Source: a virus. From it: a DNA stretch of 48,227 bases. Location: positions 1-48,227 of IMG/VR virus record IMGVR_UViG_3300022687_000002; one strand, given 5' to 3'. Below the pieces are notes generated by a model that searched no databases, was not told the origin of the DNA, and saw only the letters and a list, made by a program, of their open reading frames with translations. Made by a program: the position numbers and the translations under genes. Of the stretch, positions 6,173-16,914 are shown in pieces (positions within the stretch are counted from its first letter, which is position 1; each line of letters begins with the position of its first letter).

Positions 6173-6499
6173 ATGAAACGGATGATGATTGTGGCAGCCG
6201 CCTTGCCGCTGCTGCTCGGCCCGGCTCTGGCGCAAGAGCGGCAGCTGGGTCGATCCGGGATGAGCAATGTCTTCGTCTGGAAGGACAGCGAAGCCCACAG
6301 TGAGGCGATCAGCCTCATTCAGGCGGGGGTCAACTCCACAAATCCAGCCCTGATCATGCGGCTTCTCTCTTGCATCGCTACGCCGGGAGACAAGGCTGTC
6401 GTGGTTGATGGAGGGTTCTTCTCCAGCACCGTTCTGGTGACCAGCGGCAAGCAGGCTGGGTGCCGGGGTGTCATCGCAAATGAGGACCTGGGTAGATAG
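6173..6499 (+). CDS. Small exported protein (signal peptide)
   Basis: A 108-aa product starting MKRMMIVAAALPLLLGPALA, a clear Sec signal peptide with cleavage after ALA. The mature part has two cysteines (LLSCIATPGD and KQAGCRGV) that may form a disulfide in the periplasm. It is transcribed against the leftward operon and lies in the antisense of that operon's leader, so it is probably a lysogenic-conversion gene or moron expressed from its own promoter. No family is recognised. Confidence 0.68.
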   Translation: MKRMMIVAAALPLLLGPALAQERQLGRSGMSNVFVWKDSEAHSEAISLIQAGVNSTNPALIMRLLSCIATPGDKAVVVDGGFFSSTVLVTSGKQAGCRGVIANEDLGR

Positions 6500-6575
6500 G
6501 TGCTTTGTGGGGCGCATCTGATTGGGCAAGGGCACTGAAGATCTCCAAACCGGTGCAATCTGGTGGGTGATCTAA

Positions 6576-6605
6576 AATATGGCGAATATCGCTATAATAT
6601 GTCAA
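6576..6605 (-). promoter_or_regulatory. PL-like leftward promoter overlapping an operator
   Basis: On the minus strand a consensus -35 TTGACA (6605-6600) is followed after 18 nt by CATATT (6581-6576), with operator 6579-6595 between and over the -10. The layout copies the rightward promoter at 7989-8019. It would drive the leftward operon whose first gene starts at 6100, with a leader of about 470 nt antisense to the exported-protein gene. Confidence 0.6.
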
Positions 6606-6630
6606 GCCATAATATAGCGAATATCGCTAT
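6579..6630. promoter_or_regulatory. OL-like cluster: two 17-bp repressor operators
   Basis: Two palindromes with 7-bp arms and a 3-bp spacer: ATGGCGA-ATA-TCGCTAT at 6579-6595 (one arm mismatch) and ATAGCGA-ATA-TCGCTAT at 6614-6630 (perfect). Their centres are 35 bp apart. The first is identical to the operator at 8000-8016 beside the Cro-like gene, so the S24 repressor and/or Cro presumably bind both clusters. Confidence 0.78.
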
Positions 6631-6690
6631 TATCTGGAAAAGCCTCTGTTGATACCATTTGGCGTCAACGCCAAAACAGGCTCAAAACAG

Positions 6691-7341
6691 ATGCTTAAAT
6701 TCCAAGTTAAGGGGTCAGCTGCAAAGCCGTATCAAGTGACGGCGGAGGGTGTTGGGCGCGACCTGCGGATGTATTGCACGTGTCCGGCTGGCGACCGCGG
6801 CGGCCAGTTTTGCAAACACGTTGCAGCTCTGCTTGTTGGCGATATTTCCAGCCTTGTGTCGTCGTCGCAGGATGTCGAACGACTTCGACGGATCGCCGAG
6901 GGAAGCCCTCTGATTGGTAGAGCATTGCAGCACGTCCCGCGTGCTGCCAAGAGACCGGCAATCCACGGATATCCGGATCTCGAGTCGGTTGCGCGAGGGC
7001 TTGGCGACCGCCTGCGCGCACTTGGTTGGCACGTTGAGTGGGGCGCGACGGGTGTCGATGCCAACGAGTTGGTGGGACTCTACAAGGTTACCAAGGGTGG
7101 GAAGCAGAGAAAGTGGCCCGCTGTTTCGATAGAGTATGAGGAGTATGTCTACACCATGGTTGCTCAGCCAGATGGATCGATCGAAGCGGTGCGGGAGGAG
7201 CGAAGATCGAGACCCTGGGTCGTTCGAGGGCAGAAGACTGTTACTTTCGGAAGTCTTGATCGTGCGCTGCCAATTTTTATTGAGGCGGCCGAGGCTTTGG
7301 CACCTATTCCGGACGGAATGAGTAGACCACTCGGCCAATAA
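6691..7341 (+). CDS. SWIM zinc-finger protein
   Basis: A 216-aa protein with a SWIM-type zinc motif near the N-terminus: Cys29, Cys31, Cys41 and His43 in the CxCx9CxH pattern, preceded by a strand-rich segment (MLKFQVKGSAAKPYQVT) usual for SWIM domains. The rest has no recognised domain. SWIM domains bind DNA or proteins. It lies between the two operator clusters and is convergent with the repressor gene, overlapping its end by 38 nt; this is the place where lambdoid phages carry exclusion genes. A TTG start at 6649 is possible, but the ATG fits the domain's usual beginning. Confidence 0.75.
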   Translation: MLKFQVKGSAAKPYQVTAEGVGRDLRMYCTCPAGDRGGQFCKHVAALLVGDISSLVSSSQDVERLRRIAEGSPLIGRALQHVPRAAKRPAIHGYPDLESVARGLGDRLRALGWHVEWGATGVDANELVGLYKVTKGGKQRKWPAVSIEYEEYVYTMVAQPDGSIEAVREERRSRPWVVRGQKTVTFGSLDRALPIFIEAAEALAPIPDGMSRPLGQ

Positions 7342-7930
7342 CCCGAATGATTTCACCATCCTCACCTTCGAGCGGGATGGGTTCCTGATGCCTTGGGTCT
7401 GTGGAGTCTGGCATTAGCCAAAGCGTTCCAGTTTCGTCTTTCGCGAGCGCCTTTACTGTTGCTTCTCGCAGCCCGTCCGGTTTTTCCCGCTCCACCACAT
7501 ACCGCTTGCCAACCTCAAGTGGTTCCGGCCGTTCTATGAGTGAAGTGAAGACGATGACTGTCCCTTCCGGGTAGATCCTGTTCATGGATGGGCCGCGTGT
7601 CTCAGCCCCATAAAGCGCTACCGAGTTGAGGCCGGGCACAGCGGGCACGGATACTTCATACCAATCAGCCTCATCCCATTCGAGGGCTTCGTGCCATGAG
7701 CCCGCCGCCACGCATCCGCGGACGAGAACAGTCTTCCCACTCTTCGAGTCGCTTATGAGATCGACTGGTTCGACGTGAAAGATCTCGGCGAGCTCGACCA
7801 TTCGGTTATAGGTGAGTTCGACTTTTCCGTTCTCAAGACGGTTGTAATTGGTCAGGTCGATGCCTAGCCGCTCTGCGACTGCGGCCTGGGTCATCTTCCG
7901 CTCTTTGCGAATTGCCTTTAATCTCAACAT
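7304..7930 (-). CDS. CI-like repressor with S24 (LexA-type) peptidase domain
   Basis: A 208-aa lysogeny repressor. An XRE helix-turn-helix occupies residues 1-60 (RKMTQAAVAERLGIDLTNYN is the HTH core). The C-terminal S24 domain has a probable Ala76-Gly77 cleavage site (CVAAGSW), catalytic Ser115 in GPSM and Lys160 in ATVKAL, so RecA-stimulated self-cleavage and SOS induction are expected. The ATG at 7930 is chosen. It has no ribosome site, and a TATATT -10 lies 6 nt upstream, so the transcript should be leaderless. The ATG at 7981 would place operators inside the gene. Confidence 0.93.
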   Translation of the reverse strand: MLRLKAIRKERKMTQAAVAERLGIDLTNYNRLENGKVELTYNRMVELAEIFHVEPVDLISDSKSGKTVLVRGCVAAGSWHEALEWDEADWYEVSVPAVPGLNSVALYGAETRGPSMNRIYPEGTVIVFTSLIERPEPLEVGKRYVVEREKPDGLREATVKALAKDETGTLWLMPDSTDPRHQEPIPLEGEDGEIIRVIGRVVYSFRPE

Positions 7931-9575: not shown

Positions 9576-9781
9576 TTGAGGACGAAAAGCCCACAGGCCT
9601 GCATTGCCCTGGCTGTGGCAAGCGGATGTTCAAGACAGTGGACAGCCGCCCGGCCCATGGCGGCCAGCGCCGCCGGCGGGTTTGCGTGTCCTGCGACTTC
9701 AAGGTGATCACGCTCGAAACCATCGTCGGCACGGCACGGCCCGGTCCTGGGCGGTTGCCTGGTCATGTGGTGGTGAAATGA
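9572..9781 (+). CDS. Small zinc-ribbon protein resembling the NrdR N-terminus
   Basis: A 69-aa protein. CPGCGKRMFKTVDSRP and RRRRVCVSCDFKVITLE reproduce the zinc ribbon of NrdR, the ribonucleotide reductase repressor (CPxCG...VxDSRP...RRRRxCxxC...T.E), but the ATP-cone domain is absent. Cys12, Cys15, Cys38 and Cys41 are the likely zinc ligands. It overlaps both neighbours by ATGA. It could bind DNA at NrdR-like sites or simply be a phage zinc ribbon; no NrdR box was looked for systematically. Confidence 0.72.
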   Translation: MIEDEKPTGLHCPGCGKRMFKTVDSRPAHGGQRRRRVCVSCDFKVITLETIVGTARPGPGRLPGHVVVK

Positions 9782-10368
9782 GCGCACTTCCGCAGGGTCC
9801 CTTCAATGTCATTTACGCCGACCCGCCATGGCGGTTTCAGTCATGGTCCGAGGCCGGTGAGGATCGCAGCGCAGTCCAGCATTATGACTGCATGGATCTT
9901 GAGGCCATTGCGGCCTTGCCGGTGGCTGATATAGCCGCCGAGGATGCGGCGCTCTTCATGTGGGTTATCCAGCCGATGCTGCCCGAGGCGCTGCAATTGA
10001 TCTCGGCCTGGGGATTCACCTACAAGACCGTGGCCTTCGCCTGGTTCAAGATCAAGGGTGATCCTGATCAGCAGTTCCTGTTTGCCGACTCCGGTTCGGT
10101 CCGCAAGGGGATGGGCTATCACACGCGCTCCGGCATGGAGCAGTGCTGGCTTGCCACGCGCGGGCGTGGTTACGACCGCCTGACCAAGGGCGAGGCGCAG
10201 GCCCATCTTGAGGGCATCCGCGAACATTCCCGCAAGCCGGATCACTTTGCAGACGCGATCGTGCGGCTCACCGGCGACGTGCCGAAGCTTGAAATGTTCG
10301 CCCGCACCCAGCGCCCTGGCTGGAACTCCTGGGGCAATCAGGTCGACAAGTTCGCGGAGGTGGCGTGA
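9778..10368 (+). CDS. MT-A70 family adenine N6-methyltransferase
   Basis: A 196-aa DNA methyltransferase with the catalytic DPPW motif at residues 15-18, MWVIQPMLPEAL and WGFTYKTVAFAW in the Rossmann core, and a C-terminal KLEMFARTQRPGWNSWGN, all typical of the MT-A70 group found in phages. It would methylate adenine in a specific sequence, protecting phage DNA or marking it for regulation. The ATG at 9778 overlaps the previous stop. No partner nuclease is next to it. Confidence 0.93.
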   Translation: MSALPQGPFNVIYADPPWRFQSWSEAGEDRSAVQHYDCMDLEAIAALPVADIAAEDAALFMWVIQPMLPEALQLISAWGFTYKTVAFAWFKIKGDPDQQFLFADSGSVRKGMGYHTRSGMEQCWLATRGRGYDRLTKGEAQAHLEGIREHSRKPDHFADAIVRLTGDVPKLEMFARTQRPGWNSWGNQVDKFAEVA

Positions 10369-10721: not shown

Positions 10722-10756
10722 GCATTCATCTTGATGTCATCGGTGAGCGGCCATGA
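10718..10756 (+). CDS. 12-codon ORF linking two genes
   Basis: A 12-aa ORF (MSIHLDVIGERP) whose ATG overlaps the upstream stop and whose TGA overlaps the next ATG at 10753, both by ATGA. A GGAGG site lies 5 nt before it. Without it the gene at 10753 would be separated from its upstream neighbour and have only a weak site of its own, so this ORF may serve to carry ribosomes to the next start rather than to make a functional peptide. Confidence 0.4.
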   Translation: MSIHLDVIGERP

Positions 10757-11382
10757 TCGAGGATCACGCCGTCACCTGCCGCTTTGGTGTTCCGCCGCGT
10801 GTCCGGGCGCGGCCAGCGTCTGGGCCTTTCGGAAGCCTTGCCGCCATTTCACCGGGGTTTGATGCGCTGCCCGCCCCGGAACAAGCGGCCGCCGTGAACC
10901 TGTTGCTCGAGCGCGGAGAAAAGCCTGCGGCCATTGCGGCCGGTCTTGGCCGCTCTCGCCGCCAGATCGAAGCCCTGCGAGATCTTCGCTGCAGGCCACT
11001 CCCAGCCGCCTTCCTGCGCGAGGAGCCGGCACCGCGCCCTGTGCCCGGTCTATTTTTGCGGCCGTTGCCCGCCACTGCAAAGGCAACGGTGAGTGACAGG
11101 CTCGCTGATGCTGCGCTGCTGGCTGTCGATCGGCTGCGAATTGCGGCGGGTGTCGATCCTGACGCCGAGTTCGAGATGACGATGGATGAGCTGTGCCAGG
11201 CCTGCGACGTTGGCCTGCCCGCCGGGCGGCGTCGGGTCGGGGAGCTTGAAAGCCGCAAATGGCTCAGGCGCAAGATCCGCTCGGGCCTGCCGCAGCTGGT
11301 CATGATCGCCCTTGCCGGTCGCTGTCGCCTGGCCGCTCTTGCTGAAGCCAAGGGCCTACAAAACAAGGGGAGGGCAAAGTGA
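10753..11382 (+). CDS. Putative DNA-binding protein with two HTH-like segments
   Basis: A 209-aa basic protein. Residues 40-75 (AAVNLLLERGEKPAAIAAGL followed by GRSRRQIEALRDL) resemble a helix-turn-helix. A second, winged-helix-like segment lies near residues 140-175 (MTMDELCQACDVGL, then GRRRVGELESRKWLRRK). Its place before the HNH and primase-helicase genes suggests a role in replication or early control, such as origin recognition, but there is no diagnostic motif. Confidence 0.65.
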   Translation: MIEDHAVTCRFGVPPRVRARPASGPFGSLAAISPGFDALPAPEQAAAVNLLLERGEKPAAIAAGLGRSRRQIEALRDLRCRPLPAAFLREEPAPRPVPGLFLRPLPATAKATVSDRLADAALLAVDRLRIAAGVDPDAEFEMTMDELCQACDVGLPAGRRRVGELESRKWLRRKIRSGLPQLVMIALAGRCRLAALAEAKGLQNKGRAK

Positions 11383-11991: not shown

Positions 11992-12815
11992 CCAGGCGCG
12001 GGCGTATCCTCTATTCACAGGCTGAAATGGCCTGGCTTGAAGCAAACCGCCTGATGATAATCAGCGATTATCATGCTGCATTCGTGGCGAGGTTCGGGCG
12101 CTCCGATGTATCGGCTGCGCATCTTCATGCACTTCGTAAGCGCAAGGGCTGGCTTGTTGGTCGCGCTCCGGGCCGGTTTAAGGGGCGGCGGATCAAGTAT
12201 TCCGATGTGGAGATGGAATGGCTTCGCGCGAACGGCACTTTGCCGATCGGTGACTATCATCGTGAGTTTCTCAAGGTATTTCCCCGCGAAGATGTGACAC
12301 GCGAAAACCTGCATGCGTTGCGCAAGCGTGAGGGCATGAAAACCGGGCGGACCGGACGATTTGAAAAGGGTGCAGTGCCTGCAAACAAGGGCAAGACCAT
12401 GCCCTTCAACCCGAAAAGCGCCGCCACCCAGTTCAAGACGGGGCAACTGCCGCACAATCACAAGGGTGCCGGGCATGAACGTATCGACAGCAAGGATGGC
12501 TATGTCGTCCTGATCGTTGATGAGCCCAATCCATGGACCGGAGCCGCAACCCGACCTGTGCACAAGCATCGCTGGTTGTGGGAGAGGGCAAACGGCCCGA
12601 TCCCTGATGGCTATGCCCTCAAATGTCTTGATGGAGACAAACTCAACACTGATCCAGAAAACTGGGAGCTGGTGCCGCGCGCCATGCTGCCGCGGTTGAG
12701 CGGGCGCTTTGGGCGAGGGTTTGACAGCGCGCCGCAAGAGCTGAAGCCAACGATCATGGCTGTCACCCGACTTGAGCACGCCGCACGGAAAAAGCAGACC
12801 GAGGCTGCCGAATGA
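11988..12815 (+). CDS. HNH endonuclease with duplicated DNA-binding repeats
   Basis: A 275-aa nuclease. The N-terminal part carries two related units of about 60 residues, each ending LHALRKRKGW or LHALRKREGM, that look like tandem helix-turn-helix modules. The C-terminal HNH domain has VHKHRWLWERANGPIPDGYA and LDGDKLNTDPENWELVPR. The usual central HH is replaced by KC, as in a known phage subgroup, so the catalytic set is not the textbook one. It could be a homing-type enzyme or help in DNA processing. Confidence 0.88.
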   Translation: MTRRGRILYSQAEMAWLEANRLMIISDYHAAFVARFGRSDVSAAHLHALRKRKGWLVGRAPGRFKGRRIKYSDVEMEWLRANGTLPIGDYHREFLKVFPREDVTRENLHALRKREGMKTGRTGRFEKGAVPANKGKTMPFNPKSAATQFKTGQLPHNHKGAGHERIDSKDGYVVLIVDEPNPWTGAATRPVHKHRWLWERANGPIPDGYALKCLDGDKLNTDPENWELVPRAMLPRLSGRFGRGFDSAPQELKPTIMAVTRLEHAARKKQTEAAE

Positions 12816-15800
12816 GCGAGATCCTCGATCTCTTCGTCGAGCGCGCGCGCGAGGTAACGATAGGTGAGGCTGCGCCCCGTCTTGGTCTGGCGCTCAAGGG
12901 CAGGGCGGCCGAGCAGGCCATGCCTTGCCCGCATTGTGGCGGCAAGGACCGCTTTGCGATCAACACGGCCAAGAACAAATGGAATTGTCGCGGTGGCTCC
13001 ACCGGCGGCAATGATGCGATCGGCATGGCGGCGCATATTAGGGGCCTCGATGTCGGCCGGCGGCCCGAATTTCTTGAAGCCTGCGGTGCGGTACTGGGCG
13101 AGGCAGTGCCTGATGGGGCCGAGCAGCTGAGCGAGGAGCGACGCGCGGAGATCCGCGCGGAAGCAGATGCCCGTGCCGAGAAGGCTGAACGCGAGGCCGC
13201 GGCCCGCGCCCGTGAGGCCGGCGAGTTTCGCGAAAAGGAGCTCGCGAAATGCCGGGGGATCTATGAGGCGGCAACGCTCGGTCTCGGCACTTCGCCAGCA
13301 GCCCTTTATGTGAAGGCCCGCACCGGGCTGCCGATGTCGCGCATGGCGCTGCTCGGTGTGGCCGGTTTCGCTGACCGCCTGACCTATTGGCACGGCAGGG
13401 ATGAGCGCGGCAATCCACGCGACCTGTGGTGCGGCCCAGCGCTCGTGCTGCCCTTTGTCGATGGCGAGGGCCATCTGATCGGCATCCACCAGACATGGAT
13501 CGACATGGACAATGGCCCGAAATTCCGGCCACACCTGGTCTGCCCGGAGAAGGGCGAGACGCTGCCCACCAAGAAGATGCGCGGATCCAAGAAGGGCGGG
13601 CTGTTACCGGTGGCGGGCGAGATGAGCGCCAGCCGCTGGGTTGTGGGGGAGGGGATCGAGAATGTGTGCGCCTGGCTGGCGGCGGAACTCGATGATGACG
13701 ACGCTTTGGCGCGCGCGACCTTCTATGCAGCCGCCGGCGATATCGGCAATTTGGCGGGTGCTGCCGCGCGCACCGGGCGCTTTGCCCACCCACATGAGAA
13801 GCAGGTCGATGCCAAGGGAGTTACCCGGCCGGTGATGATGCCGAGCCCAATTCCGGACCCTGTCCGGATCTCCGAGGGTTTTCCACTCGGGCCTCATGTG
13901 CGTGAACTGCTTTTTTTGGGTGATGGAGACTCGGAGCGGGTTTGGACCGAAGCACACATGAGCCGAGCTGAATCTCGAGCTCGACTTATTTCGCCAGGTA
14001 TCGACGTGGCAACGAGATGGCCGCCAAGTGGGCACGATTGGGCTGAGCAAGCCCTGCTCGGCGATATCGGAGATGCGATCGCTGCGTCGAAATCCCCGGA
14101 CCCCTTTTCTGGCGCTTCTCTAGGTGATGAAACTGGTGCAGAAAACGCCGACAGTGGCGACGGGAAGGGAAATGGCGAATTTTCGCCAGGGCGGGAACCC
14201 GATCGGCCTTCACTGGGCGATCTTGTCGCCAGTTGTGCCGTGCTCGATCACTCCGACACGGACAACGCCAAGCGATTGCTCAAACATTTCGGCACGGACC
14301 TGCTGGTGGTTACCCAGTCCAAGGCCAAGAGCCCGTTCTATGCGGTCTGGACCGGCACCCACTGGGACACTGACAATGGTGGCCCGCGATCGCTCGCCCT
14401 GGCCCAGCAGCTGGGCGATCTGATCATGATGGAGGTCGAGCACATCAACCCTACGCCTGGTGAGCAGGCGGCGATCGATGCTGGCAGCCAGTTCCTCGAG
14501 AAGCCCGACGATGAGCTTGGCAAGCCGCAAATCAAAGCCAAGCGCCTGGCCGAGGATGCCAACAAGGCATGGATGAAGCGTCGGGCCGGACGGGCAAGCT
14601 TTGCGGTCGGCTCGAAGAACCTCGCGAAGATGAACGCCATGCTCTCCTGCGGAGCACCGCACATCATGCGCGATCCTGATCACTTCAACGCCGATCGCTA
14701 TTCCTTTGCCACGTTGAACCACACCATCCGCTTTGCGCGGGAGACTGTCGCGGTGCCTGCGCAATCGGACGCGGAGGAGGATGGCGAGGCGGTGCGCGCC
14801 GTGGTGGCGGTGCGTGAGGGCCATGCCCGCGCCGATCTGATCACCCAGCTGGTGCCGGTCGATTATGATCCGAAAGCCCGATGCCCGCGGTGGGAGGCGT
14901 TTCTCACCCGCATGCTGCCGGATGCGGAGGTGCGAAAGCTGGTGCAGATCGCCTTTGCGCTCGGCTTGGTCGGCGTGACCGTCCAGAAGCTGTTTTTCCA
15001 TTATGGCTCGGGCGCCAACGGCAAATCGGTCGCCATGGAGGTGATCTGCCGCTTGCTGGGCTCTGCCTCGGTCACGCTGCCTGCCACATCCTTTATCGGC
15101 GAAAGCAACACTGGGGGCTCTGCCTCTCCCGATATTGCCCGGCTCTATGGCCGGCGCTTCCTGCGGGTGAAGGAATTGCCGCAGGGCGAGGATCTCAAGG
15201 AGAACCTGGTCAAGGAGGTGACCGGTGGCGAAGCCATCACGGCTCGCGACCTGCATCAGGGCTATTTCGATTTCGATCCGCTGTTTACCCCGCATATGAG
15301 CGGCAACGGTTACCCGCGGATCACCGGCATGGACAACGGCATCTGGCGGCGCATGTGCGTGATCCACTGGCCTGTGCAGCTCACAGTGGATGAGCAGCGC
15401 GACTTCGAGGATGTGATGGCGGAGTTCGAGGTCGAATTCCCTGGCATCCTCAACTGGATGATCGAAGGCATGCGCATGTTCCTCGAGGAGGGGCTGGTAA
15501 TCCCCGAAGCGGTGGCGCGGGCCACCCAGGATTACCGTGACGAGATGGACCCGACAGCGGCCTTCTGCGCTGCCTGTGTACGGCCTTCACCATGCGACAA
15601 GCTGACCGCCAAGGACTTCTACCACGCCTATGTGAACTACACGGTCGACCAGGGCGGCAAGCCGATCTCGCTGACGCGGTTCGGGCTGATCATGAAGCGA
15701 AAGTTCGAGCGCGAGGAGGGCCGGACCAATCACTATCTGGGCATTGTGCTGGTCGACGTGCCGGGTGACTCGGGTGATCCGCAAACCGCGCCGCCCGGCC

Positions 15801-15826
15801 ATTGGGACGATATACCGCCGATTTAG
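12812..15826 (+). CDS. Primase-helicase (zinc-binding primase plus D5/P4-type helicase)
   Basis: A 1004-aa replication protein. The N-terminal zinc-binding primase segment has Cys39, Cys42 and Cys59 (CPHCGGKDRF...WNC). A charged coiled-coil follows at about 105-145, then a Toprim-like region (RWVVGEGIENVCAWLAAE). The C-terminal SF3 helicase of the D5/P4 family has Walker A GSGANGKS at 732-739 and KELPQGEDLKENLVKEVTGG downstream. It should unwind the phage origin and prime replication, working with the phage clamp and SSB. It ends 10 bp before a block of iteron-like repeats, the probable site of action. Confidence 0.95.
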   Translation: MSEILDLFVERAREVTIGEAAPRLGLALKGRAAEQAMPCPHCGGKDRFAINTAKNKWNCRGGSTGGNDAIGMAAHIRGLDVGRRPEFLEACGAVLGEAVPDGAEQLSEERRAEIRAEADARAEKAEREAAARAREAGEFREKELAKCRGIYEAATLGLGTSPAALYVKARTGLPMSRMALLGVAGFADRLTYWHGRDERGNPRDLWCGPALVLPFVDGEGHLIGIHQTWIDMDNGPKFRPHLVCPEKGETLPTKKMRGSKKGGLLPVAGEMSASRWVVGEGIENVCAWLAAELDDDDALARATFYAAAGDIGNLAGAAARTGRFAHPHEKQVDAKGVTRPVMMPSPIPDPVRISEGFPLGPHVRELLFLGDGDSERVWTEAHMSRAESRARLISPGIDVATRWPPSGHDWAEQALLGDIGDAIAASKSPDPFSGASLGDETGAENADSGDGKGNGEFSPGREPDRPSLGDLVASCAVLDHSDTDNAKRLLKHFGTDLLVVTQSKAKSPFYAVWTGTHWDTDNGGPRSLALAQQLGDLIMMEVEHINPTPGEQAAIDAGSQFLEKPDDELGKPQIKAKRLAEDANKAWMKRRAGRASFAVGSKNLAKMNAMLSCGAPHIMRDPDHFNADRYSFATLNHTIRFARETVAVPAQSDAEEDGEAVRAVVAVREGHARADLITQLVPVDYDPKARCPRWEAFLTRMLPDAEVRKLVQIAFALGLVGVTVQKLFFHYGSGANGKSVAMEVICRLLGSASVTLPATSFIGESNTGGSASPDIARLYGRRFLRVKELPQGEDLKENLVKEVTGGEAITARDLHQGYFDFDPLFTPHMSGNGYPRITGMDNGIWRRMCVIHWPVQLTVDEQRDFEDVMAEFEVEFPGILNWMIEGMRMFLEEGLVIPEAVARATQDYRDEMDPTAAFCAACVRPSPCDKLTAKDFYHAYVNYTVDQGGKPISLTRFGLIMKRKFEREEGRTNHYLGIVLVDVPGDSGDPQTAPPGHWDDIPPI

Positions 15827-15835
15827 GCCAAATTC

Positions 15836-16082
15836 TGCACCAGTTTGCACCAGTAGCGCACCAGTTCGCGATAGTTTCCAAAGGGGGTTTGGGGGAATGA
15901 AAACAATGGCTTGCACCAGTCTGCACCAGTTTTGCCACCCCTATATGCGTGAGAGAAAACAGCGAAAGCAAAAAAGTCTAATGCGTATAGACCTCAAAAA
16001 CTGGTGCAAGTGGTGCATGCCATTGAAATATATATAGAAAAACTATCGCTTAAACTATCGCAAACTGGTGCAAACTGGTGCA
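15836..16082. other. Candidate replication origin: inverted arrays of 9-bp iterons
   Basis: TGCACCAGT occurs at 15836, 15846, 15857 (first base C), 15913 and 15923. Its reverse complement ACTGGTGCA occurs at 16001, 16010 (one mismatch), 16064 and 16074. Neighbours are spaced 9-11 bp, one helical turn. A second repeat, GCGATAGTTT, is at 15868 and inverted at 16040 and 16052. An AT-rich stretch (about 16022-16055) lies in the right arm. No convincing gene lies in 15827-16107. Position after the helicase and this symmetry suggest an origin; it could instead be a regulatory locus. Confidence 0.68.
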
Positions 16083-16107
16083 ATCGATCAAAACAGGATC
16101 AGACGCC

Positions 16108-16914
16108 ATGAAACAGATCGACATCATCAAGCTTCTCGAATGGGCCTATCGGAATGAACTGCCAAAGGCTGAGCGTGGCGGGCAGGGCCTGCGCGCCTCG
16201 GCGCCATCGTCCTGGGGAATGGTGGCGGACTTCGGTGTGCTGGGCACCGTGATCGATGCGCCGCTCAATCCCTATGGCGTCGTTGCCGTGGGCATGGATG
16301 AGGGTGATCCGCATCCTGACGCCCTGATCGTTGGTCATGCGGTTGCAAAGCTTGACGCCGTGCGCATCTCGATTGGAGATGGCTGGACACCATTCCCTGA
16401 ATGGGCAGACGCGGATGGGCTGGTGGCTGAAGCGGTCAGGCGGATCCGCCCGCGTCTCGCCTCGATGTCCGGCCAGGAGATCCAGGCCACGCTGATTGCC
16501 CGCGCCGTGCTTGGCCGCAAGCCGGACTGGCGAGGAGATGAGCCGCGCAGGACGATGGTGATGCGTGGCGGCACGCCTGCCTGGTTCGTCAAGGTGCCGG
16601 GTCACGATGCCTATGGCCGCCCTGCCGAGCATGAGCAGGACGGGTTCAACCCGAAGAGCCGCCGGCCTCGCCCCGGCGCCTATCGCAAATATCGCCTGAC
16701 CGATGATGTGGCGGGCCTCGCAATCGACCGGTTTCGCCGCACGCTGTGGGCCTTGGCGGTTCGCCATGTGGCGCATCAGGTGGCGAGCGGCGCGCATGGC
16801 CATCTTTCAGGCCATCAACTGACCGGCGAGGTGCCCACGCTCGCGCCCTGGGCTGTTGTCGCCGGGCTCGGCGGGCAGGGGGACCCCTTCCACTCTGTGT
16901 CGCTATTTTCTTGA
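16108..16914 (+). CDS. Conserved phage protein after the origin region
   Basis: A 268-aa protein starting MKQIDIIKLLEWAYRNELPK. The C-terminal half has a basic, tyrosine-rich turn (RPRPGAYRKYRLTDDVAGLA) and a helix with WALAVRHVAHQV. No catalytic motif is visible. The ATG at 16078 in the same frame would run into the last iterons, so 16108 is preferred. It is followed by a strong terminator, so it closes the early rightward transcript. Function unknown. Confidence 0.72.
   Translation: MKQIDIIKLLEWAYRNELPKAERGGQGLRASAPSSWGMVADFGVLGTVIDAPLNPYGVVAVGMDEGDPHPDALIVGHAVAKLDAVRISIGDGWTPFPEWADADGLVAEAVRRIRPRLASMSGQEIQATLIARAVLGRKPDWRGDEPRRTMVMRGGTPAWFVKVPGHDAYGRPAEHEQDGFNPKSRRPRPGAYRKYRLTDDVAGLAIDRFRRTLWALAVRHVAHQVASGAHGHLSGHQLTGEVPTLAPWAVVAGLGGQGDPFHSVSLFS

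Follow-up and report, generated by a model that had tools for sequence, protein, structure and literature searches.

SV40 T antigen and papillomavirus E1 are SF3 helicases that act as opposed hexamers on inverted sites. In phage P4, the C-terminal part of the alpha protein binds short iterons, and initiators of the P4 family bind more than one cis region (ori and crr in P4). Lactobacillus phage A2 has a rep_origin that, from the record annotation and the literature, we take to function as an origin of replication. In the sequence record (AJ251789), this region is annotated directly 3' of the D5-family primase ORF35; in it we find opposed iteron sets, four copies in each direction, on either side of very AT-rich DNA. 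In PICIs, the origin follows the initiator gene on its 3' side and has its iterons in two sets around an AT-rich region, and in a plasmid test with EcCICFT073 deletion of the origin lowered plasmid maintenance (PMC6092414); in SaPIs, Rep uses its C-terminal domain to read the iterons, apparently as two hexamers (PMC7581432), and the origin of the crenarchaeal plasmid pRN1 is found downstream of its primase-helicase gene (PMC4234260).

Our analysis concerns an IMG/VR viral record (IMGVR_UViG_3300022687_000002) in its full length of 48,227 nucleotides (the window), which is from a prophage whose host bacteria are relatives of rhizobia; its nearest named relative is in Hoeflea sp. BAL378 (L017). 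An array of short repeats (15836–16082) directly follows a gene encoding a primase-helicase, and this region is very probably the phage replication origin, read by the adjacent primase-helicase, because about 70 distinct loci have such an array directly 3' of the gene for a P4-family primase-helicase, because the repeated word changes with the C-terminal half of the protein and with nothing else tested, and because the A2 rep_origin and the origins of PICIs/SaPIs match it in position and resemble it in layout. A sequence-only reading had proposed a candidate phage origin here; the position, the link between word and C-terminal half, and the likeness to A2 and PICI/SaPI support this as the best reading.

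The primase-helicase gene (12812–15826, plus strand) encodes a protein of 1004 residues, in which an N-terminal primase half with a zinc ribbon (about residues 1–420) is fused to a C-terminal P4/D5-family SF3 helicase (about residues 465–1004). The protein matches PF08706 (D5_N), phrog_1156, and TIGR01613 (phage/plasmid primase, P4 family; 198 bits vs a cut-off of 109); the profile of the C-terminal half matches the SaPI5 primase-helicase (7ola; E 3e-11) and also the D5-type hexamers of poxviruses and ASFV; and an AlphaFold model (mean pLDDT 76) matches 7ola and D5-type hexameric helicases. A hexameric, self-loading helicase is supported by this homology, and the C-terminal end is predicted to be a small helical DNA-binding domain that also contains a strand, which would fit a winged helix; the protein is the probable initiator. 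The two halves are encoded by separate genes in three relatives (L028, L029, and L032), and in L006 (about 6360–7420; also in L017) approximately 1 kb of extra DNA is found between the halves that form a single fused gene in the window; with these arrangements, modular exchange is easy to picture. A single exact iteron word also occurs in the linker between the halves (14132–14140, minus strand), with a counterpart at a similar place in L006 (7357) and L018 (7497) that is absent from L007.

The first iteron starts 9 bp past the stop codon (15826), a small correction to the sequence-only reading, which had rightly placed the array directly after the gene. Four exact copies of TGCACCAGT are present on the plus strand (15836, 15846, 15912, and 15922), together with CGCACCAGT at 15857, which differs by one mismatch; in the reverse direction, exact copies are located at 16000, 16064, and 16074 and a one-mismatch copy at 16009. 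The earlier count of five copies facing four therefore holds, as do their positions, but one copy in each direction is imperfect (two of the nine). A second repeat, GCGATAGTTT, is present as inverted copies as had been described (15868 on the plus strand vs 16040 and 16052 on the minus strand), and the spacing within groups, given earlier as about one helical turn within pairs, is 9–12 bp. These repeats are genuine and greatly exceed the chance expectation: the 48-kb window contains 20 matches to TGCACCAGT with at most one mismatch (8.7 expected), nine of which fall in 247 bp (about 0.04 expected at the whole-window shuffle rate); the clustered-repeat score of 14 is the highest among 398 windows of 480 bp across the record (median 6), and none of 200 shuffled versions of the region scored above 7.

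TGCACCAGT and GCGATAGTTT replace one another at the same array position among relatives, so we pooled both in one profile. Thus, the two repeats that had been described separately are both present, but we regard them as variants of one degenerate iteron, TGC[A/G][A/C][C/T]AGTT. A scan of 15836–16082 with this profile, which was trained on the window's clade and whose weakest sites are partly threshold-dependent, finds twelve sites, six per half, arranged as 4+2 on the plus strand facing 2+4 on the minus strand; shuffled regions contain approximately one site per 510 bp. The outer left group (15836–15876, plus strand) has sites at 15836, 15846, 15857, and 15867, the last being CGCGATAGTT; the inner left group (15912–15931, plus strand) has sites at 15912 and 15922. 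The centre (15932–15998; 67 bp, 58% AT) contains an imperfect inverted pair (CCTATATGCG at 15940–15949 and AATGCGTATAG at 15980–15990) that is nearer perfect in L006 and L018. To its right are two reversed inner sites (15999–16008 and 16008–16017, minus strand), the right spacer TGCCATTGAAATATATATAGAAA (16018–16040), and four reversed outer sites (16041, 16053, 16063, and 16073; two GCGATAGTT and two TGCACCAGTT; 16041–16082, minus strand). The right spacer is a candidate melting element, with 78% AT vs 38% for the 3' end of the primase-helicase gene, in agreement with the earlier description of the right part as AT-rich.

In the window, the outer four pairs of sites share one dyad axis and the inner pairs are off by 11–12 bp in sum; a formal dyad test on word-refined sites, which misses degenerate sites and so has reduced sensitivity, gives a borderline p of 0.06. 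Cumulative GC skew, which had been suggested as a check, has no inflection at the array, although for a phage of 48 kb this test has little power.

The relatives that we compared came from two sources, viral contigs and 792 genomes around Hoeflea, and gave about 70 distinct loci. The search for the repeat at the same locus in relatives, also suggested earlier, was productive: in almost all of the relatives examined (C-terminal part 35–90% identical), an array is found directly downstream of the helicase, often with different words (TGCGACAGT, TGCGAGGGT, TAGGGAGG, TAGGGACG, and TCTGACAGT). For 71 distinct loci, the median array score directly downstream of the gene is 13; the stretches within the gene and further downstream both have a median of 6, with maxima of 9 and 11, respectively. 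The p values for these comparisons (about 1e-19 to 1e-21) overstate the certainty because related loci are treated as independent, but the effect is large. By repeat scoring, the array is weak or absent in some relatives (e.g., L062, L066, and L096), and for distant classes the iterons come from repeat searches, which overlook degenerate copies. Matches to a 19-mer in L030, L031, and L034, which have no adjoining primase match, were set aside as probable chance matches.

The 4+2 / 2+4 count is also found in nine other loci (L026, L027, L028, L029, L036, L037, L047, L048, and L050), among which the word at a given array position often differs; in L028, all six site pairs fall on one dyad axis within 1 bp. 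With word-refined sites, the dyad test gives p ≤ 0.05 in 27 of 69 loci, and arrays of the AGGGAGG class lack mirror symmetry. In all 13 arrays that were measured, the left spacer is 34–35 bp and the centre 64–69 bp; the right spacer is 23–25, 35, or 45–47 bp, that is, it changes in steps of approximately one helical turn, which suggests that a protein complex has to occupy a single face of the helix.

The left spacer of the window also contains a G-tract pair, GGGGGTTTGGGGGAA (15883–15897), on the primase coding strand. The pattern GGGG(G)-N2-4-GGGG(G), searched in a form that allowed runs of three, occurs on this strand in 63 of the 73 arrays and in nine on the opposite one, with about 19 expected by shuffling; some arrays have it in the left spacer, some in the centre, and some in both. 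The pair is found across iteron classes, whatever the iteron word, which makes binding by the iteron-reading domain improbable; a role as priming start or in strand choice would be a guess.

The next gene (16108–16914, plus strand; phrog_9306) follows the array in most relatives, across iteron classes too, and its product is possibly a replication partner. Upstream, an open frame with a DPPW motif (9604–10368) had no match in an NCBIfam search and probably encodes an MT-A70-like adenine methyltransferase. Unannotated arrays of similar layout are present in Rhizobium phage RR1-A (L101 7503–7802), two genes downstream of the primase, and in Aurantimonas phage AmM-1 (L104 4289–4519).

Natural exchanges between loci separate the candidate readers of the array. 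In seven loci (L009–L012, L020, L038, and L041), the N-terminal half of the primase-helicase is 69–75% and the C-terminal half 34–36% identical to that of the window, and the array has a different word (AGGGAGG); in L028, L035, and L036, the N-terminal half is 46% and the C-terminal half 70% identical, and the word is the same. On this double swap, the N-terminal primase half is rejected as the reader. The word follows the C-terminal helicase/DNA-binding half and no other candidate tested; this link, like the array itself, its symmetry, and its conservation beside this protein family, is shown by sequence comparison. In the close clade, the helix that putatively recognises the DNA changes along with the word: SLTRFGLIM goes with TGCACCAGT/TGCGATAGT, SLTAFGLIM with more TGCGACAGT, and SETAFGR/SETRFGK with TGCGAGGGT; this association is confounded by common descent, and shared ancestry could explain part of it.

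The array might instead be an operator at which a phage repressor or activator controls the downstream genes: clusters of short repeats before a gene are common operators, and a CII-like protein and an HTH protein (10753–11382) are encoded upstream. The HTH protein, which the sequence-only reading had named as a possible binder, is rejected as the reader: it has no match in six array-bearing viral records (G008–G013), and it is present in L011, L038, and L041, whose array word differs. In addition, no sigma-70-like promoter or terminator was found in a scan of 15700–16200, twelve mirror-image sites over 247 bp are unlike simple operators, and the word tracks the helicase half; an operator array is, accordingly, very unlikely. 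The chance is slimmer still that these are incompatibility/copy-control iterons or a partition site, bound by the helicase to limit replication, much as P4 alpha also binds crr. The binding of more than one cis region by P4-family initiators would favor such a role, and a cognate site is mentioned in PMC6092414; however, neither the window nor the related viral records contain a second iteron cluster, so with one array per record a separate ori would have to be without iterons, and no partition genes are seen adjoining the array.

We consider a packaging (cos/pac) site, at which the terminase would bind the iterons ahead of the late genes, the least probable of these readings. The array is 1.6 kb upstream of the small-terminase gene, and in Rhodobacter phage RcapNL a similar iteron array (L103 5509–5828; L106 1–84) encloses the annotated cohesive end, so that an origin there would be complete only after circularisation. 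However, the site is not co-inherited with the terminase: L038 shares the downstream gene with the window and is 97% identical in portal, 90% in TerL, and 72% in TerS, yet its helicase half and word differ, whereas L006 and L007 share the helicase half and word with the window and are 37–38% identical in TerL. On this swap, the terminase is rejected as the reader; also, the AmM-1 and RR1-A arrays are about 3 kb from the record ends.

If the region is the replication origin, the C-terminal domain of the primase-helicase would bind the twelve iterons directly, and each half, with its six sites, would collect one helicase hexamer. As the two halves face opposite ways, the centre would then lie between two hexamers of opposing polarity. 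The AT-rich spacer DNA would then melt, the two helicases would move apart, and the fused primase half would make primers for a bidirectional start. The match of six sites and six subunits is attractive but unproven, and the other classes of the family do not all keep six. Only tentatively, as a rather doubtful extension, we suggest a distinct class of alphaproteobacterial prophage origins in which the 6+6 mirror array counts one SF3 hexamer per half, the spacers vary by whole helical turns only, and the G-tract pair has a separate, iteron-independent function (primer start or strand choice).

The dozens of helicase/iteron pairs, with different words and a common plan, constitute a natural specificity code, and their ready-made domain swaps open two questions to direct testing, namely which residues recognise the iteron and whether it is the six sites on each side that determine how two opposed hexamers are loaded. 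Searches of the openly accessible literature found no description of an origin of this type in rhizobial phages, and an earlier description is possible in subscription papers, which were outside our scope; we found no description of the 6+6 geometry or of a strand-specific G-tract pair within the array.

Among the known systems, SV40 T antigen and E1 offer an analogy of mechanism only, that is, opposed SF3 hexamers: their DNA-binding domain is N-terminal, and the number and spacing of their sites differ. P4 alpha belongs to the same helicase-primase family (TIGR01613), but P4 needs two separated cis regions, and no counterpart of its second iteron region (crr) was found in the window or related records. 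The A2 origin is similar in its location directly 3' of a D5-family primase and in its opposed iteron sets; it differs in its word (ACGGGAGGA), lacks the 4+2 / 2+4 spacing, and is from a phage of a Gram-positive host, and its primase is 27% identical to that of the window in the helicase half only. The PICI/SaPI systems (SaPI5 PriRep and E. coli EcCICFT073) share more of the plan: as in the window, two iteron sets around an AT-rich, putative melting region are located directly 3' of the gene for a P4/D5-type helicase; in these systems, the helicase is self-loading and its C-terminal domain reads the iterons, apparently as two hexamers, as we propose for the window. In contrast, the window is a complete tailed prophage, not a satellite; its array halves are split 4+2 with fixed spacers, its AT-rich element falls mainly in the right spacer and less in the centre, it has a G-tract pair, and its fused primase half is exchangeable as a module. 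The probable origin belongs to a known kind and is well supported, and its layout is unusually regular.
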